Source of the DNA: a virus | Virus record (IMG/VR): IMGVR_UViG_3300021185_002100 | Span: 1 to 22,016 of that record | Direction: 5' to 3' (one strand) | DNA length: 22,016 nt | Shown here: one piece after another, positions 5,099 through 21,403 of the stretch | How the letters are laid out: each line of letters opens with the position of its first letter | Position numbering within the stretch: the stretch's first letter is position 1 | Notes under the pieces: model-generated | The model's input: only the letters and a program-made list of their open reading frames with translations | Databases searched by the model: none | What the model was told of the DNA's origin: nothing | Position numbers and translations under genes: made by a program

Positions 5099-5370
5099 TA
5101 GCTTTCCTCGTCCATCTGTTTCGCGATACTGGCCAATTTCGCTGCGCGGCTTGATGACATTTCAAGCAGTTCTTCAGTGTTCGACATCCGACCCGCTACA
5201 TTACCCATATCGCGCTGTAGGCTTTCTCTAGTTGCCAATATTGCAACACGAAGGGCCGCTATGTCGTCCTTAATAGGTTTTAATTCTTCGTGGATACGAG
5301 CGTCGATGTACTCGCGAGTTACCGCGTCCACCTGTGATGCCCAGTGCTTGCTGTTTACAGGGTTCGTCAT
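5098..5370 (-). CDS. Small coiled-coil phage protein, unknown function
   Basis: A 90-residue hydrophilic protein predicted to be mostly alpha-helical. The region from DARIHEELKPIKDDIAALR to the end (SSSRAAKLASIAKQMDEES) has coiled-coil periodicity. There is no signal peptide or membrane segment. The ATG overlaps the portal TGA (ATGA) and the stop overlaps the next ATG (TAATG), so it is translated with the portal and fibre genes. Small helical proteins at this location are often head-tail or fibre accessory proteins. No family was recognised, so the role is open. Confidence 0.6.
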   Translation of the reverse strand: MTNPVNSKHWASQVDAVTREYIDARIHEELKPIKDDIAALRVAILATRESLQRDMGNVAGRMSNTEELLEMSSSRAAKLASIAKQMDEES

Positions 5371-7283
5371 TGCTTCGGAGCCTCTTTCATTGGTACTAGG
5401 TTGCCCTTCTCAACTTGACGCTCGATGTCTTCTTGGGACTTTACGTTCGCGCCGCGAGCTTTCTCCATCATCAGCATCTGTTGTGACGGGGTTGGGCCTT
5501 GAGCCTGCTGCTCCTTGTTGATCTTGAACTGGTCAAGGTCAGAGACGCCCATGGAGCGGATTGCTTCCTCGACGATCTTGCCGCTGTTGTACTCCATGGC
5601 CATGCCCGTCTCGTTAAGAGTGCGGAGCATCGTGATCCATGTCTCAGCGTTGCGAGTTGGCTCCAAGGGAAGCGTACCGTCTACGACGAGGTACTCAATG
5701 TCGCCCTGGATGTCTTGAAGTTTGAAGTCGAGGTATCCGTCCTTCACCATGTCGGCCACATTCCCCGCACTATCACTGTCAGATATGCGGATGGAGCTTT
5801 CGGGAGCGAAGAAGTCCTGTACGTTGGCAACCATCATGCGAACCATAGGACGCACAGAGGTGGCCGAAATCGTACGAGCGAGTACGCCGAGGCGTTGTGA
5901 GCCTAATTGGGTAAGACGTTGGATCTCTGTGGCTGTACGAATGCCGTCTGCCGTAGGCATACCCTGCTGCGCATCAGATGCAGCAGATACACGCTGCTTC
6001 AGACCCGACATCGCCTCAATATCGTTCCAATGACCCCTAGTTACGTCAGGGATCTGGCTAATAAAGACGCCCTCACCTGGCTTTACCCCAGGTAAAGTAC
6101 GCACAATGCCGTGTGGATTGCGGTCAATTAGGTCTCCAATCGCAATTTGCGTGGGATCTACGAACATTAAGTTGGTCAAAGCGGCCTGTACGTTGTCGAT
6201 ACGTGACCTAAGAAGCCATGTCGCTACGTCGTGCAGAGGAAGAAGTAGATCATACAACGACTGCGAGTACGTTTTGTGTGCGTCGTGGTACAGACCGCCT
6301 ATCACGACAGGGAACTGCCTGCCGTATGGGTTGAGTTGGCAACGGATAACCACGTTCTCGTCGAGAATTGTGATGCACATCCATAACTGTTCGATCTGAG
6401 GTACGCCGATTTCGTACCCAGCAAGGCGAACCCACATCTCATCAACTACACGACTGTCTCCGAGGGCGAAGAATGTACCCCCACTCTCACGACGGTTGCG
6501 CTCGGCAGGGTCAATGCTTAGTCCTCGTCCCGCTTCTTTATGCCATCTATGTCCGTCCCACCCACCACTAGGAGGTGTGAGGCGGTTTCTGAGGGATGGG
6601 TACTGCTTGAGCTTGGGGTACATGCCTGTTTGCATGAGTGCGTCATAAGAAGAGAAGTCAGAAAAGATGATGTACTGCATCCGCTCCCAATCTCCCCACT
6701 GGACACGGGGGTCGTGGAAAACGCGGCGCGGGTCGAAGTTGGTGATTTGGTTTGTTCGCGAGGAAGCATCCCACGTAACTTTCGTGGGTGCGTATCCGTA
6801 CCGAATGCTGTCAAGAAGATGTTGGGCAAGGCGAGCCTCTCCTGCTGTTCTGCGCATCTGCTGATGAAGTAGGCGCTCAATAATCTGAGACCCCTTCCGA
6901 GACTTGCGGTTCAAGCCCTCCAACTGAAACATAGGGTTTCGGCCCGTAAGAGCCGACATCAGGTACGTAAGCACAGTATCTGCAATAGCGCGTGTGTCTG
7001 CAATGACCGCCTTCTCACGAAACTGTGTCGCGTGAGGATCTACGTACACATCATGTGCCCGATCCGCCTGCGTCCAGTGGTCGTAACGACGTGAAATGCG
7101 GTCGTATGACATCTGCATAGCAGAACGAGCATAATCAACTATGCGTTGTTCCTGTTCATCAGTAAGCATCGAGGAAATATCCTCGTATGCCATGAGAGCA
7201 TTAGCGTGTTCGGACAAGTCAACGATGATGCCATCGCTCTCAGGTACGAAGTCCGCACGGTAATTTGTGTTAGTCAGTGCCAT
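5367..7283 (-). CDS. Phage portal protein (head-to-tail connector)
   Basis: A 638-residue protein immediately after the large terminase, the usual portal position. It would form the ring at the capsid vertex through which DNA is packaged. Portal-like features include the N-terminal helical clip (AIADTVLTYLMSALTGRNPMF, about residues 98-118), the NFDPRRVFHDPRVQWGDW segment (about 180-200), the beta segment with NPYGRQFPVVIGGLYHD, and the helical stem rich in long amphipathic helices (LLPLHDVATWLLRSRIDNVQAALTNL). A Gln/Lys-rich helical C-terminus (from about residue 585) follows. The length is in the range of P22- or podovirus-type portals. The ATG at 7283 lies 13 nt after an AGGAG (7301-7297). 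The stop overlaps the next start (ATGA). No capsid gene follows, which is atypical. Confidence 0.85.
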   Translation of the reverse strand: MALTNTNYRADFVPESDGIIVDLSEHANALMAYEDISSMLTDEQEQRIVDYARSAMQMSYDRISRRYDHWTQADRAHDVYVDPHATQFREKAVIADTRAIADTVLTYLMSALTGRNPMFQLEGLNRKSRKGSQIIERLLHQQMRRTAGEARLAQHLLDSIRYGYAPTKVTWDASSRTNQITNFDPRRVFHDPRVQWGDWERMQYIIFSDFSSYDALMQTGMYPKLKQYPSLRNRLTPPSGGWDGHRWHKEAGRGLSIDPAERNRRESGGTFFALGDSRVVDEMWVRLAGYEIGVPQIEQLWMCITILDENVVIRCQLNPYGRQFPVVIGGLYHDAHKTYSQSLYDLLLPLHDVATWLLRSRIDNVQAALTNLMFVDPTQIAIGDLIDRNPHGIVRTLPGVKPGEGVFISQIPDVTRGHWNDIEAMSGLKQRVSAASDAQQGMPTADGIRTATEIQRLTQLGSQRLGVLARTISATSVRPMVRMMVANVQDFFAPESSIRISDSDSAGNVADMVKDGYLDFKLQDIQGDIEYLVVDGTLPLEPTRNAETWITMLRTLNETGMAMEYNSGKIVEEAIRSMGVSDLDQFKINKEQQAQGPTPSQQMLMMEKARGANVKSQEDIERQVEKGNLVPMKEAPKQ

Positions 7284-7322: not shown

Positions 7323-8987
7323 TTATTCACCCCAGCCACGCCACGCGGAGCTGAGATTGTTTAGGTCGGACTTTTGGTTCCATAAACTGTCGCTCGACTT
7401 GGGAAGCGCGAACGATGGAGGTGCGTAATATTCACCCGTTGCTGGGGTGCGGGCGAGAACGTCTAGGCCAATGGTCATGGCGTCTACGATGTCGTCGTGA
7501 GTACCAGCAGGAAAGGTTTGCATCTCGTCGTGGAAGGCGTCTAACCACGGCGCAGCGCTGGGGATGAACACACGGCCACCCTCAATTAGAGGCAGTACCG
7601 CCGACAGGCGGGAAACTTTGTCGCTGGATATTTTGTACGGGATCACGGATACGCCGCTTTCTCGCTTCAGCTCTTGCAGCAAGGATTGACCGCTGGCCTT
7701 GTCCTCGATGTAGATGCCACGCAAGCCACGACCGCGCCACTGGTTGTTAAGCATGATCATGTTGCGCTTGAGGTCAGGGAACTCGTACCGCTCTCGATGA
7801 ACGTCCACGATGTAGATGTCGCCGTTCGTATCGAGACCCATAGTCATCATGACAGAGTAATCGCTCGTCTGCTTGGCCTTGAACGCAGTGTCGGCTGCAA
7901 TGATGAGAGAGTTAAACTTCTCTGGCTTCATGTCAGCAGGGTACGTACGCCACCAATGTGAGCGGATCATGTTGCCGCCCTGTATATACGGGGTCTGCTG
8001 GTAGAGAGATGCGAACTCTCGCGGGTTTAATCTTTGACGACGCTCCAGATCTTCGAGGGAAAACCGTTCGGGCCACAAGGCTCTCTTCTCAGTCTTGCGT
8101 ATGTATCGTTTTGCTTTGCCGAGCTTGCTGGCTTCGCCTGGTGCGAGGTACTGAGGGTCGTCGCTTGGTAGATTGGAGCGGGAAATTTTACCAGCGTCTC
8201 CTTGAATTGGTCGCTCCTCGACGGCAGGGAAGTTGATATGAAGCCAGCGGCCCTCATGCCAGTCATCAGTTTGCATAAGTCGCCCTGCAAGATCGTCAGG
8301 GTGCCATCGGGTGAGGATGATGATTTGCGCGGGGGGAACACCGTCAACGTCTGGTTGGAGACGGGTGCTGAGAGCGGATATATAATAATTCCAGACCTTG
8401 TTCCGCTGCGTGGCACTCTCGGCTTCCTCTCTGGACTTTAGTGGATCATCGAAAAGGAGGAGGTTCGCTGCGCGACCAGACGTTGTACCGCCCACACCGA
8501 TAAAGTACGCGGCTCCGCCGCCAGTTGTACGCCACTGGTCTACGGCTCGGCTGTCCTGAGACATCTCGAAGTCGGGAAACGCTTGGGATGTCAGCGGCTC
8601 ATTGACCAGATCACGCACTTGACGACCGAAATCGGTGGCCAGTTGGCTGTTGTACGAGGTGGACATCAGGAAACGGTTGGGCTTTCGCGCCATAAAGTAA
8701 GCGGGGAATATTACGGAGCCGTATGTGGACTTGCCGTGGCGCGGTGGCATGGTGATTAGTAGGTTTCGTACGGGTACTTCTTCCGTATTCTCCCGCTCGG
8801 AGGCCGACTTGCCGTGGTGAGACGTAAGCGTGTTGCGCTCTAGCTTGTCGAGAGCCTCGATCATGTCCAGGTGAAACTGCGGTAGCGTCCAGTCGGGGAA
8901 CTGTAGGCGTACCCAGCCTAGAAAGCTGTCCTCTGCTGCCTTGAGCTTGAGGAGATGCTTGGCTGCGTCCTGCGCCGAGATGCTCAT
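7323..8987 (-). CDS. terL: Phage terminase large subunit
   Basis: A 554-residue packaging motor with ATPase and nuclease halves. The Walker A motif is PPRHGKST (81-88). Walker B is LLLFDDPL (177-183; acidic D180/D181), followed by a coupling-motif-like segment (QIIILTRWHPDD, 221-232). The RNase-H-like nuclease domain starts with AADTAFK (D366), continues with IYIEDKASG (E429/D430) and ends with GTHDDIVDA (D498/D499). This is the arrangement of Terminase_6-type large subunits, which load DNA into the prohead and cut it. The start (ATG 8987) overlaps the TGA of the preceding small gene and has TGAGGA just upstream. The gene lies 39 bp before the portal. All catalytic motifs seem intact. Confidence 0.95.
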   Translation of the reverse strand: MSISAQDAAKHLLKLKAAEDSFLGWVRLQFPDWTLPQFHLDMIEALDKLERNTLTSHHGKSASERENTEEVPVRNLLITMPPRHGKSTYGSVIFPAYFMARKPNRFLMSTSYNSQLATDFGRQVRDLVNEPLTSQAFPDFEMSQDSRAVDQWRTTGGGAAYFIGVGGTTSGRAANLLLFDDPLKSREEAESATQRNKVWNYYISALSTRLQPDVDGVPPAQIIILTRWHPDDLAGRLMQTDDWHEGRWLHINFPAVEERPIQGDAGKISRSNLPSDDPQYLAPGEASKLGKAKRYIRKTEKRALWPERFSLEDLERRQRLNPREFASLYQQTPYIQGGNMIRSHWWRTYPADMKPEKFNSLIIAADTAFKAKQTSDYSVMMTMGLDTNGDIYIVDVHRERYEFPDLKRNMIMLNNQWRGRGLRGIYIEDKASGQSLLQELKRESGVSVIPYKISSDKVSRLSAVLPLIEGGRVFIPSAAPWLDAFHDEMQTFPAGTHDDIVDAMTIGLDVLARTPATGEYYAPPSFALPKSSDSLWNQKSDLNNLSSAWRGWGE

Positions 8988-12971: not shown

Positions 12972-12992
12972 AGGAGGTTAGAGCTATAGATT

Positions 12993-13018
12993 GCAGCATT
13001 CCGCTGCGGTCTGTTTTC
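12993..13018 (+). terminator. Probable weak terminator before the AAA+/VWA operon
   Basis: The stem GCAGC (12993-12997) / GCTGC (13003-13007) with an ATTCC loop is followed by a T-rich stretch containing TTTT. A competing stem CTGCGG (13004-13009) / CCGCAG (13025-13030) uses the same right arm, so folding could switch between two forms. Confidence 0.4.
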
Positions 13019-13037: not shown

Positions 13038-13068
13038 TTGACACATCGTACGTTGTGTCAGATACACT
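13038..13068 (+). promoter_or_regulatory. Promoter with embedded palindromic operator upstream of the CobS-like gene
   Basis: TTGACA (13038-13043) matches the -35 consensus exactly. The -10 element is less clear (GATACA at 17 bp or TACACT at 19 bp spacing). A 22-bp inverted repeat (13039-13060: TGACACA, a central CGTACG at 13047-13052, TGTGTCA) covers the -35 and the spacer, with a single mismatched pair. A dimeric repressor bound here would block RNA polymerase. The start codon is about 30 bp downstream. Confidence 0.55.
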
Positions 13069-13094: not shown

Positions 13095-14666
13095 ATGTCA
13101 AATTCAAATCTTAATGTTCAATCAATCCTCGACGATTACAATGCACGCGATGCTCAGAAAATTCTGCGCACGTATATCGTAAATGAAACCCACCGCTTCG
13201 AAGACGCGTGGACGTGTATCGTGGAAGTCGCTCTCAAATCGGTGCTTGTGAACGGAGACCATCCGAACTCACGCGCTATGAAAAGCGTCAGCAAGTCACA
13301 GATACTTGATCGCATGAACGTGCCGTCACTGGCGATGCTTATAAACTACATGAACCAAATGTCCTATGACGAGGCGCTGCTCCTTTTCGCGAATGAGTTT
13401 GTGAACAACGACCCCGATTGTATTACGAACTGGCCGTTCGTGGACGAGATAGAGGACTTGGGTACGATATACGTCTCGCGTCAAGATGGCGCGGAGATCG
13501 AGGCCGTCGAAGAAGAAGGTGACGAGGCCGAGGTGGCGGGTGCGTACGATGTGACACCCGACATCGCTGCTGCTGCTAACGTGTTGCTTCGTGCTGCTAC
13601 TGGCGGCGAGATGGAAGACTTGCAAGCGTTGCTCGACGAGGTGGTGACACTGCGTAAGAAGCCCGATGCGATTGCGCTTCCTGCTATCGAGGCGTCGGGT
13701 GAGATACCGTTCGGTGCTCCCGTACGTAAGAACGCTCACGAGGTGTTCGGCATTCAACACCCGCTGCTTAACTTCGAGATCAACACGTACGAATGGAGTG
13801 GCGTAAATCCCTTGGTGCCAACCAAAGACGAGGATTACATATTCAACGTGGACAATCTGCACGATGTGTTGTGGGCATTGGAGAACGGCGAGAACAGTTG
13901 GCTGACAGGTCAAACTGGTACAGGCAAGTCCACCCTCATTGCTCAAGTGTGTGCGTTCACTGGCTACATGATGATCCGCGCCAACATGGACAGCGCGATT
14001 GAACGTCCAGACTTTGTGGGTTCGATGGCGGTTATGACTGACGCGGATGGCAATACCGTGACCCAGTTCAAGGATGGCATCTTGCCCAAGGCGATGCAAC
14101 AACCATGCGTGTTGCTGCTCGACGAGATAGATGCAGTACGTGCTGACATTGCATACGTGTTGCAGCCAGTGCTCGAAGGTCAGCCCTTGCGCATGTTGGA
14201 AGATGGCGGTCGCGTGGTTCACCCGCACATGGACTTCCACATTGTTGCGACAGCCAACACGACAGGATCTGGTGACAGCTCTGGCATGTACGCAAGTGCG
14301 GTCAAGGTTCAGTCTCGTGCGCTTATCAATCGGTTCAGCACATTCGTAGATGTGAAGTACCTCAACATTGCCGACGAGATGAAGCTGGTTCGTGTTGCTG
14401 CTCCATCTCTGAGCGATGATGCGGCGGCGATGATCGAAGAGTTTGTCGGAGTGTACCGCATGGGCTTTCTCGACGGTACGATTGCTACCCCCATATCACC
14501 CCGCAACACCAAGGTTATCGGCAAGTACGTAGCCAACTTGGAGGGACGTATCGGATGCAACGATGCGGTACGCCGCGCCTTGCAAATGAACGTGATGCTT
14601 ACGGTCGATGAGGGCGATGCAATCGCGGTCACTGGCATCATGGATCGCATAACTACTCAATCTTAA
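13095..14666 (+). CDS. CobS-like (MoxR clade) AAA+ ATPase
   Basis: A 523-residue AAA+ ATPase. The first 210 residues (helical, with an acidic EAVEEEGDEAE stretch) are a phage-specific extension. NAHEVFGIQHPLLNF begins the CobS-like part. Walker A is GQTGTGKST (272-280). The strand VTQFKDGILPKAM and Walker B CVLLLDEIDA (D343/E344) follow, then IVATANTTGSGDSSGMY (sensor 1 region) and a late ISPRNTKVIG segment. These match the order in the cobaltochelatase subunit CobS and MoxR ATPases, which remodel or load partners through a VWA protein. ATG 13095 is chosen because GAGGT precedes it by 5 nt; ATG 13083 has no SD. The zincin/VWA gene follows 29 bp later. No CobN is present, so true cobalt insertion by this pair alone is unlikely. 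Confidence 0.85.
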   Translation: MSNSNLNVQSILDDYNARDAQKILRTYIVNETHRFEDAWTCIVEVALKSVLVNGDHPNSRAMKSVSKSQILDRMNVPSLAMLINYMNQMSYDEALLLFANEFVNNDPDCITNWPFVDEIEDLGTIYVSRQDGAEIEAVEEEGDEAEVAGAYDVTPDIAAAANVLLRAATGGEMEDLQALLDEVVTLRKKPDAIALPAIEASGEIPFGAPVRKNAHEVFGIQHPLLNFEINTYEWSGVNPLVPTKDEDYIFNVDNLHDVLWALENGENSWLTGQTGTGKSTLIAQVCAFTGYMMIRANMDSAIERPDFVGSMAVMTDADGNTVTQFKDGILPKAMQQPCVLLLDEIDAVRADIAYVLQPVLEGQPLRMLEDGGRVVHPHMDFHIVATANTTGSGDSSGMYASAVKVQSRALINRFSTFVDVKYLNIADEMKLVRVAAPSLSDDAAAMIEEFVGVYRMGFLDGTIATPISPRNTKVIGKYVANLEGRIGCNDAVRRALQMNVMLTVDEGDAIAVTGIMDRITTQS

Positions 14667-14695
14667 TCAACTCTCAACTCTCATAGGAGACACAA

Positions 14696-16543
14696 ATGTT
14701 TTCACAAAATTCAGTCAGCGCCCTTGCTACCGAGCTGGACAAGCTATCACGGATCATGGGCAACAAAGATGTACGTACCACGTTTCAAGGTACAGGTGCA
14801 TTCACCAACGGCACGACGATCAACGTGCCAGCAATGGACATGACAGCGGAGCTTGATCCAACCCATCAGGCAATCATGCGTGGGTATCACATACATGAGG
14901 TCAGCCATGTCACCGACACCGACTTTGGTGTGTTCAAGAAGCGCGGCATCAAGAAGATCAAGGACATCTGGAACTGCGCAGAGGATGTGTTCATCGAGCG
15001 TAAGGCCATGGAAAAGTACGCGGGTGCTCGCAAAAACTTGCAGCAAACGATCAACCATGTACTCGGCAACGAGAATGAGTTTCGTCGTGCCAACCCCGAT
15101 GATCCGCAGTGCAACAGAGAACGCTGGTGGAAGGAGATACCTTACGCTGCATTGCAGCAAGCACGCAAGGACATGGGGTACGAAAGCGAAGAGCTTGACG
15201 AGTACGTAAAGGGCTTACCGAAAGAACTGGCTCGCGAGGCTCGTAAGTTTGCCAAGCGTATGATCGCCTCAGAAAGTAGTGACGATGCGCTCAAGGTCGC
15301 TCGCTCAATGAAGCGCCGCATGGATAAGCTCGGGACACCCGAACAGGAAGAGGAGCAAGAGCAAGAGACCCAGCCGCAGAAGGGACAAGGTGACGACACG
15401 GAGGACGGAGAAGGTCAAGCCAACGGCGAGAACGACGGCGACGACGGCGACGAAGAGGGTGGTACGAAAGGCGACGGCGGCGACGACGACGGAGGCAACG
15501 ACGAAGGTGAAGGCGAAGACGACGGCTTCGATATTGGAGCTGCCCAGCAACGAGCCGACGATGCAATGAGTGATGTGTTTGGTAAGTACAATAGCGGCAA
15601 CAGCCGCGTGTGTGAGAACCTATCGCTTGTCTTTGATACCCATGACGAACTGTGGAGGTACTACCACAAAATCATCAACGCAGAATACAACACCAAAGGT
15701 AGCCGCAGGCTGATCAACGACAACTATCTTACGCCATCCGGTAGGATGCGGATGGATGTTGACAAGGATCTGACCACCCAATGCCGAGAGAGTATGGCCG
15801 ATGATGTACGTCAGTACAGTGCTCGCCTTGCTAGATTGCTACTGGCTCAAGAGGATCGTCGCAACGAGGGTGGATACTCAAGCGGTCGTATTGATCGTCG
15901 GCGGTTGAGCCAGCTTGTCGCTGGTAATGACAACGTGTTCACGAGACCCAGCATTACGAAGACAAGCGAGACGCGACTGATGATCGCTGTCGATGGGTCG
16001 AGCAGCATGAGCGAGGTGCTGACTATACAAGCGGTGCTTGCGCTCAACTCATGCCTTGGACGTGCTGGTATCAAGTACGACATTGTTGAATGGAGTGGGC
16101 TAGACCTTCGCAACGAGGCCGACACATTCCAAGAGCAGACAAGCATTGTGTACCACAAGAAAGCGAGTGAGAGCTGGCGGAAAATCAACGAGGTGTTTCA
16201 GTTTCTGCCAGTCGGCGGCGGTACACCTACGTACGCCAGCATCACAAGCGTTTCACGCATCATGTCTGGATGGACAGAGCCGCGTAGGGTCTGCCTATTC
16301 CTGACGGATGGTGAGCCAGATGCAGGACGTAGAGGCGAAGTTGACATGGTCGCCAAGCATACGAAGGCCATGCGTGACGGCGGCATTGAGGTCTACGGCA
16401 TAGGCATCAGTGCAAACGAAAAGATAATGAGAAATATGTTTGGAGAGCATGTCGTCATGACTGACTTCTCACGACTGGGCAACACACTGCTCGGTGGCAT
16501 CGAGCGTCTTCTCATTTCCGAAGGTCACGCTCATGCGGCGTGA
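14696..16543 (+). CDS. CobT-like protein: HExxH metallopeptidase-like N-terminus plus VWA domain
   Basis: A 615-residue partner of the AAA+ gene, with TAGGAG before its ATG. The N-terminal region carries HEVSH (67-71), an HExxH zinc motif. It is followed 25 residues later by NCAEDVFIERKAM (E96, E101), a plausible third ligand as in gluzincin-type sites. Residues 215-279 are an extreme Asp/Glu/Gly linker like that of CobT. The C-terminal VWA domain has the MIDAS motif DGSSS (433-437), a downstream GGGTPT, and LTDGEPD. VWA proteins bind metal-dependent partners and usually work with MoxR/CobS ATPases. This could be a chelatase-like, chaperone-like or proteolytic machine acting on a host or virion target. 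The end overlaps the next gene by 11 nt. Confidence 0.8.
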   Translation: MFSQNSVSALATELDKLSRIMGNKDVRTTFQGTGAFTNGTTINVPAMDMTAELDPTHQAIMRGYHIHEVSHVTDTDFGVFKKRGIKKIKDIWNCAEDVFIERKAMEKYAGARKNLQQTINHVLGNENEFRRANPDDPQCNRERWWKEIPYAALQQARKDMGYESEELDEYVKGLPKELAREARKFAKRMIASESSDDALKVARSMKRRMDKLGTPEQEEEQEQETQPQKGQGDDTEDGEGQANGENDGDDGDEEGGTKGDGGDDDGGNDEGEGEDDGFDIGAAQQRADDAMSDVFGKYNSGNSRVCENLSLVFDTHDELWRYYHKIINAEYNTKGSRRLINDNYLTPSGRMRMDVDKDLTTQCRESMADDVRQYSARLARLLLAQEDRRNEGGYSSGRIDRRRLSQLVAGNDNVFTRPSITKTSETRLMIAVDGSSSMSEVLTIQAVLALNSCLGRAGIKYDIVEWSGLDLRNEADTFQEQTSIVYHKKASESWRKINEVFQFLPVGGGTPTYASITSVSRIMSGWTEPRRVCLFLTDGEPDAGRRGEVDMVAKHTKAMRDGGIEVYGIGISANEKIMRNMFGEHVVMTDFSRLGNTLLGGIERLLISEGHAHAA

Positions 16544-16853
16544 TCTTAAACTACCCACCAAGTTTGATCCGAAGGTCAAGCCACGCATCAAGCGTGACTG
16601 GTACAGGCTCGCTGACGAATGGCGTCCTTATACCTGGTGGTGGCATGTGGCGTACGTCATCCGATCAAAGCGCGTACGCCACGCCGATGAAGAAAAGATC
16701 AAGCGCGTGATGTGCTTGGTCGATAGCAAACTACCCCATCTAAAGGAGGATTACATCCGTGCCCGTACTAACACAAGCAGTGCTTTGCCTAGCTATGAAC
16801 GTATATTTCGAGGCGAGGTCAGAGGATATGTTGGGACAACTCGCCGTGGCTGA
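16533..16853 (+). CDS. Basic hypothetical protein (106 aa) overlapping VWA and lysin genes
   Basis: The start ATG 16533 has GAAGGT about 7 nt upstream and lies within the last codons of the VWA gene. An earlier in-frame GTG (16494) lacks an SD. The protein is very basic (MRRDLKLPTKFDPKVKPRIKRDWYRLADEW and continuing), with a Trp-rich segment (RPYTWWWHVAYVIRSKRVRH). It could bind nucleic acid or membrane. Its last 95 bp overlap the lysin gene in another frame. Function unknown; the tight overlaps suggest co-expression with both neighbours. Confidence 0.55.
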   Translation: MRRDLKLPTKFDPKVKPRIKRDWYRLADEWRPYTWWWHVAYVIRSKRVRHADEEKIKRVMCLVDSKLPHLKEDYIRARTNTSSALPSYERIFRGEVRGYVGTTRRG

Positions 16854-17145
16854 AGTCACAATCAACAGAGTAAAGAGCGAGAGGTATCCCGACAACGTAT
16901 GCGATGTCGTGTGGCAGCGCAGACAGTTTTCGTGGACGCACGACGGAAAGAGCGACACCCCAAAAGACGAACAGGCTTGGGGTCGAGCGAAGCACATAGC
17001 CGAATACGCAATGCGCGATACGGACATGTTCGTAGTGGGTGGCGGCGTCACTCACTACCACGCCGACTACGTGAAGCCATACTGGACGACAAGCTATGTC
17101 CGCGTACGGCAAGTTGGAACCCACATATTTTACAAACGAGGATAA
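16759..17145 (+). CDS. SleB-type cell wall hydrolase (endolysin)
   Basis: A 128-residue protein of the Hydrolase_2 (SleB) family, which cleaves peptidoglycan glycan strands. The hallmarks are all visible: LAMNVYFEARSE (11-22, probable catalytic Glu18), GQLAVAEVTINRV (26-38), PDNVCDVVWQRRQFSWT (44-60) and THYHADYVKPYW (98-109). It starts with GTG at 16759, supported by AAAGGAGG 8 nt upstream. There is no signal peptide or membrane anchor, so release would need a holin, none of which is obvious next to it. A phage role in lysis is the simplest reading. The location beside the AAA+/VWA pair and a cupin, far from the structural genes, is less usual. Confidence 0.9.
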   Translation: MPVLTQAVLCLAMNVYFEARSEDMLGQLAVAEVTINRVKSERYPDNVCDVVWQRRQFSWTHDGKSDTPKDEQAWGRAKHIAEYAMRDTDMFVVGGGVTHYHADYVKPYWTTSYVRVRQVGTHIFYKRG

Positions 17146-17146
17146 C

Positions 17147-17731
17147 ATGAGCAGCAAGCTACAGAATATTGCTAAAGCAATTCAAAACAATTCTTTCCAA
17201 GCGTACGGCTGGGTGCCGTACGGACCAATCGTAACCCACTGGATCGAAGATGTGACAAGTATCATTTGGTACAGGGAAGACGACATCCAGGTACAGGTGT
17301 TTGCCGTGCCGCCCGACTACATCATTCCCGAACACACACACCCGAACGTGGACAGCTACGAGTTGCTTGTGGGTGGCGACATCAAGTTCAGTAAGGATGG
17401 GAAGTGGGTCACTGACAATGACATCATTGAAGCCAAGGCCGTACCGCCACCCCAAGTTCATCCCTATCGTGGATCGCTAGTCCGAGTGCATCCCGATACG
17501 CCACATGGCGGTGCGTTTGGACCGCGAGGCGGTGTGTTTATGAGCATCCAGCAATGGCTCAATGGAACAGAACCCCACTGCGTAAGCGCTGATTACGAAG
17601 GGGTCGTGATGGGAGACAGGCATCTCGACGGCGTTGTGAGTGGCAATGCCAAGAGTAAGGGAAGCCAGAAGAAATTAACGTGGCGAGACGCAGCATCAAA
17701 AGAAACATCAGCACCAACATTCGAAGGATAA
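17147..17731 (+). CDS. Cupin-domain protein
   Basis: The start ATG 17147 follows GAGGATAAC; a longer in-frame start would overlap the lysin. The 194-residue protein contains a classical cupin motif 1, IIPEHTHPNVDSYELLVGG (about 59-77: His63, His65, Glu72), and a second histidine segment, VRVHPDTPHGGAFG (His115, His120). This gives the 2-His/Glu/His metal set of a beta-barrel cupin. Cupins range from dioxygenases and isomerases to sugar-binding regulators. The fold is clear but the reaction is not. The C-terminal 40 residues are Lys/Ser-rich. It is an unusual phage cargo gene, placed between the lysin and a winged-helix regulator. A metabolic or host-signal-modifying role is inferred only. Confidence 0.75.
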   Translation: MSSKLQNIAKAIQNNSFQAYGWVPYGPIVTHWIEDVTSIIWYREDDIQVQVFAVPPDYIIPEHTHPNVDSYELLVGGDIKFSKDGKWVTDNDIIEAKAVPPPQVHPYRGSLVRVHPDTPHGGAFGPRGGVFMSIQQWLNGTEPHCVSADYEGVVMGDRHLDGVVSGNAKSKGSQKKLTWRDAASKETSAPTFEG

Positions 17732-19846: not shown

Positions 19847-20854
19847 TTACAGGGACATCACGGCTGCTTTATGATCCTCATAGGTGGTGTTCATGTAACG
19901 CATCACCATCTTTAGATCTGAATGCCCCAGTAAATCTGCGATTACTTTGGGCGGTATTCCGTTACGCGCAAGACGCGTAGCGAATGTGTGTCTTAGGGTG
20001 TAAGGTGACTTTCTTATTTCTAGCCTGTCAGTAACCTTACGCCAGTGATACCCAATCTGTTTGTTAGTTTCGAACGGTCGCCCGTCGATCATGAATGGGT
20101 ATGCCGCAGGGGGTGGATCACTGCGCGGGATTGTTAAGAGTGCCTTGTCGTTGAGGGGCACCCGACGCTCCCTGAGTTCTCCGTCTGCACCTTTGTACGA
20201 GCCGAGGACTACAGTGTTGTTGCTGAAGTCTACGTTGTCATAGGTCAGACGCATCGCCTCAATAGGACGAGCACCAGTGTGGAGTAGGAAGTTGCAAAGG
20301 CGTCGGATGTCTGGATGCAAGTCAGGAAAGATTGTGTCGATCTCTTCTTGCGATAGCGTATCCGTTTTGTGTTTGCCTTCACGCGGCTTCTTTAACTTTA
20401 CTGGTTCACGTAACCCGAGGGATGCAGCGAAGTTGAGTACGCCTTGGAGTTGGTTAAGGTCTCTGCGAATTGTTGAGTTCGCATTGCCACGATTGACATG
20501 CTTCTCCTCTACATATTCTTCCACGTCGTTGAGGTCGATCTTGTTGATCTGAAACTCTCCGAAGTGATTGACGAGACGCATGACGTACTCCTTGGTTGAT
20601 TTGCTGCTCCCAGTATGGGGCGATTTGAGATAGCGGCGAGCGACAGATTTAAATCTGTTCTGTGCTCCGTGGATTGATTTCTGTCCGAGCTTTATAGTTC
20701 CTGCTAAAACCTTGGCTTCGTACTCAGCGCATAGTTCTTTTGCATGTACGTAGTCATTGGTTCCTAGAGAATGTCGAACGCGGAAACCTTGGAACGAGCC
20801 AACCGCTTGATACATTTTTCCACCGCTGCGCTTCTTAACTTTGAAGAGCGGCAA
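19847..20854 (-). CDS. int: Tyrosine-type site-specific integrase
   Basis: A 335-residue tyrosine recombinase that would integrate the phage at a tRNA-Ser gene. The N-terminal arm-binding part (1-60; FQGFRVRHSLGTNDYVHAKE) is followed by a SAM-like core-binding domain (about 65-155). The catalytic domain has Arg196 in HTGARPIEAMRL, a likely Lys221, Arg288 and His289 in YTLRHTFATRL (Tyr285 replaces the common first His), His311 in LLGHSD, and the nucleophile Tyr320 in VMRYMN. The gene starts with TTG at 20854, supported by AAAGGAGG, which overlaps the end of the LuxR-like gene. Low-efficiency initiation plus coupling would keep integrase tied to that regulator. The 3' end points at attP. Confidence 0.93.
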   Translation of the reverse strand: MPLFKVKKRSGGKMYQAVGSFQGFRVRHSLGTNDYVHAKELCAEYEAKVLAGTIKLGQKSIHGAQNRFKSVARRYLKSPHTGSSKSTKEYVMRLVNHFGEFQINKIDLNDVEEYVEEKHVNRGNANSTIRRDLNQLQGVLNFAASLGLREPVKLKKPREGKHKTDTLSQEEIDTIFPDLHPDIRRLCNFLLHTGARPIEAMRLTYDNVDFSNNTVVLGSYKGADGELRERRVPLNDKALLTIPRSDPPPAAYPFMIDGRPFETNKQIGYHWRKVTDRLEIRKSPYTLRHTFATRLARNGIPPKVIADLLGHSDLKMVMRYMNTTYEDHKAAVMSL

Positions 20855-20857
20855 AGT

Positions 20858-21391
20858 TTAGTCCTCCTTTCGATACAAGTTTTCATATGGGTCGGGCTTG
20901 GAACCGTCGTAAGCTCTAGCCCAGTCGATTGGTAAGCCGCCCGAAGATCGTTGGTACTCAGTCGGGTCAACGCGGTCGAGTATGTCGTGCATTACTAAGG
21001 CAGCTTGGCCTCTAGTTTTGGTGCCGACCTTCTTACATACGGCCCGAACGTGCAGCTTAACAGTGTTCTCTGCTATATTAAGAACGTCGCCTATGGCTTT
21101 GTTTGACCAGCCTTCTATTAAGAATTGGGCAGTAACATGCTGCTTCGCTGTCATGGTACGAAGTAGAGACAGCTCGGCGGGTGCAACTGGGCTGGCAGTG
21201 TCCTTGATAGCTGGTGCGCTATTTGTACTTTGCAGCAGGAGATTGGTGATAATGTCGAGCTTCGCCTCAAGTCGAGCAAGTTCGAACCGAAAGTTTTGTG
21301 TGTTGTTTGACATTGTTTCATACTGATCCATGATTGATTTAAAAGGCCCAGGGGTTTCTGGACTGTCTCCTATGTAGTGGTTATGATACAT
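20858..21391 (-). CDS. LuxR/GerE-type transcriptional regulator without autoinducer domain
   Basis: A 177-residue protein from ATG 21391, with AAAGGTG 10 nt before it. A GTG 12 nt further upstream, giving 181 residues, is an alternative. Residues of about 28-58 form a coiled coil (NFRFELARLEAKLDIITNLL), probably for dimerisation. Residues of about 77-133 are a LuxR-type HTH: LLRTMTAKQHVTAQFLIEGWSNKAIG continuing with DVLNIAENTVKLHVRAVCKKVGTKTR. There is no acyl-homoserine-lactone or response-regulator receiver domain, so it should be controlled by level or by partner proteins. The integrase SD is inside its last codons, and only 3 bp separate the genes. It likely controls lysogeny genes. Confidence 0.85.
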   Translation of the reverse strand: MYHNHYIGDSPETPGPFKSIMDQYETMSNNTQNFRFELARLEAKLDIITNLLLQSTNSAPAIKDTASPVAPAELSLLRTMTAKQHVTAQFLIEGWSNKAIGDVLNIAENTVKLHVRAVCKKVGTKTRGQAALVMHDILDRVDPTEYQRSSGGLPIDWARAYDGSKPDPYENLYRKED

Positions 21392-21403
21392 CTTTGTCAA
21401 CAC

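Follow-up and report, generated by a model that had tools for sequence, protein, structure and literature searches.

What does a marine phage do with two adjoining genes that resemble cobS and cobT of the cellular cobaltochelatase? In cyanophages, cobS belongs to the core genes, and studies of phages and viromes commonly count it among the B12-related auxiliary genes. The pair considered here lies in a 22,016-base virus record, a marine virus fragment that was analysed over its whole length (the window), and it comprises an AAA+ ATPase (P0001) and a partner with a zincin-like domain, an acidic linker and a VWA domain (P0002). A sequence-only reading had proposed that the two proteins were retooled for another task, such as remodelling or metalating a host or virion protein. 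That phages carry such pairs is already known (PMC11288001, PMC8651126), and the useful result of the present work is the comparison that separates the pair from CobT.

The window and its phage family

The gene set and gene order of the window are those of the CRP-810 family of Roseobacter phages (PMC11288001). The portal (5367-7283) and terminase large subunit (7323-8987) are encoded on the minus strand together with further large proteins; plus-strand genes, beginning at about 9.7 kb, comprise small ones, the P0001/P0002 pair, one for a cell-wall hydrolase and others. Near the pair are also genes for an integrase and for a LuxR-type regulator (19847-21403, minus strand), with terminase and portal in the opposite arm, as is typical of the CRP-810 type. 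Two close relatives of the window, L016 and L017, also match the terminase, portal, integrase and LuxR of CRP-810.

The nearest annotated relatives of the window pair are those of CRP-810 and phage T5S1. CRP-810 has both genes in the order seen here (gp06 and gp07), likewise close to integrase and LuxR-type regulator genes, but their products share only 28–31% identity with the window proteins, and in the window the integrase and luxR genes are on the opposite strand. In a quick unrooted tree, the CobT-like protein of the window groups with those of L013, L016 and L017 on a branch separate from CRP-810. Genes named cobS/cobT were already reported for almost all members of the family, where they are annotated as cobalt chelatase and their function in the phage is called uncertain (PMC11288001); the pair was thus known, though without an explanation.

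Three further features of the window deserve mention. The integrase and LuxR genes run opposite to the pair in the window's subgroup, whereas most CRP-810-type relatives have all of these genes on one strand, a difference that, judged by sequence, is an inversion of the lysogeny block. A cell-wall hydrolase (PF07486, E 6e-26; 16759-17145, plus strand) is encoded immediately 3′ of the VWA gene, at a distance from the structural arm, and is possibly an endolysin. Finally, the product of 17096-17731 (plus strand) has weak, cupin-like matches to PCO_ADO and DMSP-lyase families, below the curated cut-offs, and could possibly be a small-molecule enzyme carried by a marine phage.

The AAA+ ATPase and its promoter

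P0001 (523 aa; 13095..14666, plus strand) consists of an N-terminal extension (residues ~1-200) and an AAA+ core (~205-523), and ends 29 nt before P0002. The CobS-type order of motifs recognised in the earlier reading was borne out: Walker A is GQTGTGKST (272-280), Walker B is LLLDEID (D343/E344), and TANTTGSGD follows from residue 386. Profile matches were obtained to phrog_249 (E=7e-53) and to CobS TIGR01650 (E=1e-40), the latter at 140 bits and hence short of the equivalog cut-off of 558.55. Residues 214-472 align to 18-273 of solved CobS, and the structural model (mean pLDDT 83.5) has fold matches in CbbQ2 and NorQ (TMt 0.81-0.86). An AAA+ protein with Walker A and B motifs and a MoxR/CbbQ-type fold is therefore encoded next to a VWA protein with a MIDAS, which is the arrangement of MoxR-clade pairs.

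The N-terminal extension (13095..13694, plus strand) is predicted to be helical at 8-115 and 155-188, with a low-confidence acidic linker at 127-149. It makes P0001 about 196 residues longer than solved CobS, somewhat less than the ~210 extra residues first estimated, and is lacking in cellular CobS. Across the phage group (39 non-redundant members), ~275-437 residues precede Walker A. A relationship of the extension to DUF3150 was considered and rejected (hhalign probability 0.25%).

Upstream of the pair lies a promoter-like sequence, TTGACA-17-GATACA (13038..13066, plus strand), whose spacer is filled by a 22-nt near-perfect palindrome, TGACACATCGTACGTTGTGTCA (13039-13060). Promoter and palindrome are kept in six relatives while the flanks diverge, and in three of the six the P0001 and P0002 homologues are only ~57–73% identical. 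A simple sigma-70 consensus scan did not pick up this promoter because of its weak -10 element, so it is the conservation of the palindrome amid changing flanks that supports the earlier proposal of a dedicated promoter with an operator. The palindrome is likely a repressor operator. Further upstream, a terminator-like hairpin is followed by a T-rich tract (12986..13014, plus strand), and the hairpin region is partly conserved in relatives.

The zincin-VWA partner

P0002 (615 aa; 14696..16543, plus strand), whose relatives are labelled CobT, begins with a zincin-like N-domain (aa 1-215; 14696..15340, plus strand) that possesses intact HEVSH (67-71) and NCAEDVFIER (93-102) motifs. One predicted helix (55-74) carries H67, E68 and H71 and a second (85-107) carries E96, D97 and E101, such that an HExxH helix is followed by a helix with a downstream acidic ligand, as in gluzincins. 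Residues N93, E96, D97 and E101 are invariant in 29 diverse N-domains from phages and plasmids. The N-domain had no match among the Pfam peptidase families. A weak profile match to the anti-CRISPR protein AcrIIA26 (PDB 9zq6_B; E 4e-4) falls on the region of the N-domain's second helix, but as it covers 62 residues without the HExxH part, it was rejected as a probable chance match to an acidic helix.

The linker that follows (aa 215-290; 15338..15565, plus strand) is 41% D/E and mostly unstructured in the model, and the VWA domain (15974..16540, plus strand) has a complete MIDAS (DGSSS at 433, GGGTPT at 507 and TDGEPD at 537). The partner is therefore as the sequence-only reading had described it, with zincin site, acidic linker and MIDAS all in place. 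Matches of P0002 to CobT PF06213 (1e-5) and to VWA (2e-4) were found, the former just under the family cut-off. The solved folds closest to the VWA model are the Rea1/midasin MIDAS domain (Z 19.7) and the NorD VWA domain (Z 19.1); the search, run with full-length P0002, gave VWA matches only.

A predicted remodeller with a peptidase head

We regard it as an even call that the pair is a two-part remodeller powered by ATP and equipped with a predicted peptidase head, and that its likely target is a DNA-bound complex early in infection. P0001 would probably form a hexameric ring like those of CbbQ, NorQ and CobS, and P0002 would act as its adaptor and effector, with a contact between ring and VWA domain like that presumed from NorQ-NorD. 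If NorQ-NorD and midasin are a guide, the MIDAS could grip an acidic residue of the target protein or complex, and the acidic linker could couple this grip to the ring. Turnover of ATP in the ring would then pull on or loosen the target, and the zincin domain would cleave whatever part became exposed. The target would likely be a replisome, a recombination complex or a host protein trapped on DNA, rather than a corrin ring or, probably, a virion. The metalating role suggested earlier finds no support. The best solved-fold matches for the P0001 ring and the P0002 VWA domain, NorQ-NorD, CbbQ and midasin/Rea1, act in cells in cofactor insertion, Rubisco activation or ribosome assembly, and we know of no zincin domain in any of them.

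Genomic context and the likely target

The choice of target is suggested by the replication-linked context of the pair in other lineages. T5S1 (Cobavirinae)-like phages have DNA polymerase and primase-helicase genes ~3-7.5 kb downstream of the pair, and in the 100-kb phages SSU5, RHEph10, ANB28 and ZY21, DNA polymerase III alpha is ~1-5 kb downstream. Close neighbours include a sliding clamp and clamp loader in cyanophage S-RIM44, primase, helicase and polymerase in ICP2, UvsX and a primase-helicase in DLP6, and the DNA-repair enzyme T4-type endonuclease V in many CRP-810-type relatives. On plasmids, a toprim protein accompanies the pair of pAR349, and DnaE that of a Microvirga plasmid. These adjacencies are descriptive, and the lineages share ancestry. 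In the CRP-810 family, including the window, the pair heads the non-structural arm, divergent from the terminase, and no replication gene adjoins it; ~8-12 kb separate it from the nearest one, which encodes a Holliday-junction resolvase, and the link to replication is hence drawn there by analogy.

The IncC plasmid pSN254 carries a pair of this kind. Its CobS-like ATPase is 31% identical to P0001 over 244 aa, and its VWA protein has kept the zinc site (HEAAH and NVLEDCRIER); it differs in that DUF3150 is encoded by a separate gene, that ssb-bet-exo lies between the ATPase and the DUF3150/VWA genes, and that the ATPase has no N-terminal extension. Close relatives of this pair occur in E. coli, and matching plasmid records numbered 4,115 for the ATPase and 2,274 for the VWA protein. 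Genes for a CobS-like AAA protein, DUF3150 and a VWA protein were also seen at three conjugative plasmid loci (L160, L252 and L253), and DUF3150 had no mention in the literature searched.

A role in the virion would be another use for such a machine. For the MoxR AAA+ and metallopeptidase-vWA pairs of jumbo phages (group 2.2), a remodelling chaperone with a peptidase was predicted and a part in virion assembly was proposed by analogy with an Acidianus two-tailed virus system (PMC7824862). The domain architecture is the same by description, and cobalt chelatase and CobT go unmentioned there. The VWA domain of P0002 also has a weak fold match to an Acidianus two-tailed virus VWA protein (E 1.1e-5). 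Against a chaperone-peptidase of virion assembly or maturation, the pair and the structural genes occupy opposite arms and are transcribed divergently, replication genes adjoin the pair in other lineages, and no pair was seen inside a structural module among the loci inspected. Moreover, homologues occur on plasmids, which have no virions, and this together with the non-structural placement argues against a purely virion role. We consider this explanation improbable, and the virion-protein target of the earlier reading is likewise not favoured.

It is similarly improbable, in our judgement, that the pair is a protease-unfoldase of counter-defence or host takeover that dismantles a host protein. 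Such a role would account for the broad distribution among phages and conjugative plasmids and for the non-structural placement, and the dedicated promoter with its likely operator would suit it. However, entire phage families keep the pair in nearly every member, and it recurs in replication contexts, which is unlike the fast turnover of counter-defence genes. PADLOC, which covers defence rather than counter-defence, returned only weak, generic AAA matches, and identity with a PADLOC defence family was rejected on that account.

Separation from cobaltochelatase

The preferred reading, a remodeller with a predicted peptidase head, draws on the zinc site, and it is here that the mobile-element proteins part from cellular CobT. 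Viral loci were picked by CobS alone, with the zincin motif left out of the selection, and the neighbouring VWA protein was then inspected. HExxH was present in 44 of 48 non-redundant viral partners, or 44 of the 47 that have an N-domain; the exceptions were L150 (no N-domain), L136 (HEGAGH, with one extra residue) and the degenerate L112 and L115. None of 80 cellular CobTs had the motif (44/47 versus 0/80; Fisher 6e-31, ignoring shared ancestry), a contrast biased by the retrieval of these CobTs, nearly all alphaproteobacterial, which used patterns taken from the degenerate N-domain of CobT and from its VWA motif. At the aligned positions cellular CobT has RGLGD or RGHAD, and DAVEQARVEA, and the CobT N-domain in solved structures agrees. 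This degenerate site (RGxxD, DAVEQxRxEA) is absent from the window, which has HEVSH and NCAEDVFIER instead. The invariance of the H/E/H residues in sets A3 and A7 is partly circular because viral-contig members were filtered on HExxH, and the unbiased figure is that of the CobS-picked set (44/47). When bacterial genomes were scanned with a profile of the phage zincin-VWA protein, no relative was found, although the narrow peptide patterns used make this no evidence of absence. The contrast in HExxH between viral partners and cellular CobT is, at the level of the motifs compared, a new result, as are the CobN comparison given below, the replication context in other lineages and the conservation of the promoter with its palindrome.

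Some mobile-element members have lost the site as well. HExxH is missing from L112, L115, ANB28 (L166) and ZY21 (L167), and in the first two the NxxED motif has also changed, as in cellular CobT. Catalysis is thus not needed in every member.

CobN, the remaining chelatase subunit, was found in none of 32 virus records with the pair (the window and 31 others), many of them possibly fragments, with nine deposited phage genomes searched whole; its absence from the window had been noted before. By comparison, of 30 cellular genomes that encode CobT, 26 also encode CobN. The other four (L172, L175, L197 and L199, from Chelativorans, two Bartonella and Pseudochrobactrum) gave no match, and either CobN may have been missed in them or their CobST may have another use.

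It has been argued that viral CobST hijacks host CobN to form a cobaltochelatase and raise cobalamin, and that the "peptidase" label on cyanophage cobT is mistaken (PMC8651126), and CRP-810 is annotated accordingly (PMC11288001). The AAA+ core, N-domain and VWA domain of cellular CobST (PDB 9uka, 9ujv, 21vu) are indeed homologous to those of P0001 and P0002, alphaproteobacterial hosts could supply CobN given its frequency in CobT genomes, and some relatives encode a ribonucleotide reductase. Yet cellular CobST has lost HExxH and N-x-x-E-D from its N-domain, has a shorter CobS and usually comes with CobN; the zinc site is intact in viruses and lost in the sampled CobTs; a similar pair on IncC plasmids is also found in E. 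coli, of which a control genome had no CobN; no ribonucleotide reductase was found in CRP-810 or the longest close relatives; and the cobaviruses, defined by a B12-dependent ribonucleotide reductase, are described without mention of cobS. An auxiliary B12 function is therefore very improbable. Conservation of the zinc site, which extends to the "peptidase" of S-RIM44, suggests that the peptidase label was right. The intact zinc site, the lack of CobN in the virus records and the presence of the pair on IncC plasmids reaching E. coli support the view that P0001/P0002 is not a cobaltochelatase as such, nor a B12 gene set.

Origin of the pair

To this extent the earlier notion of a pair retooled for another task holds, but the direction of change is perhaps the reverse. 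The phylogenetic comparison it had called for was run on 54 CobT-like proteins as a quick, unrooted tree with long branches. Here a long stem leads to a single clade of 15 cellular-type CobTs (100% support), which is placed among the proteins of mobile elements. This topology fits, though it does not prove, such a reversal, and the chelatase subunit CobT may be a derived, specialised branch that has lost its zinc site. More tentatively still, and with some doubt on our part, it is conceivable that the phage genes called cobS/cobT, whether in cyanophages, the CRP-810 type or other phages, and the related AAA/VWA genes on IncC plasmids constitute one replication or recombination module of mobile elements. 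The module would be a zinc metallopeptidase powered by ATP that removes DNA-bound proteins or processes them, with a logic like that of Cdc48-Spartan/Wss1, and cellular CobT would have arisen later by loss of the zinc site.

Implications

If these pairs are indeed peptidase-remodellers acting on DNA-bound proteins, ecological inferences based on B12 would be wrong. A protein-processing step would instead be common to large phages and conjugative plasmids, and it would be testable in laboratory systems.
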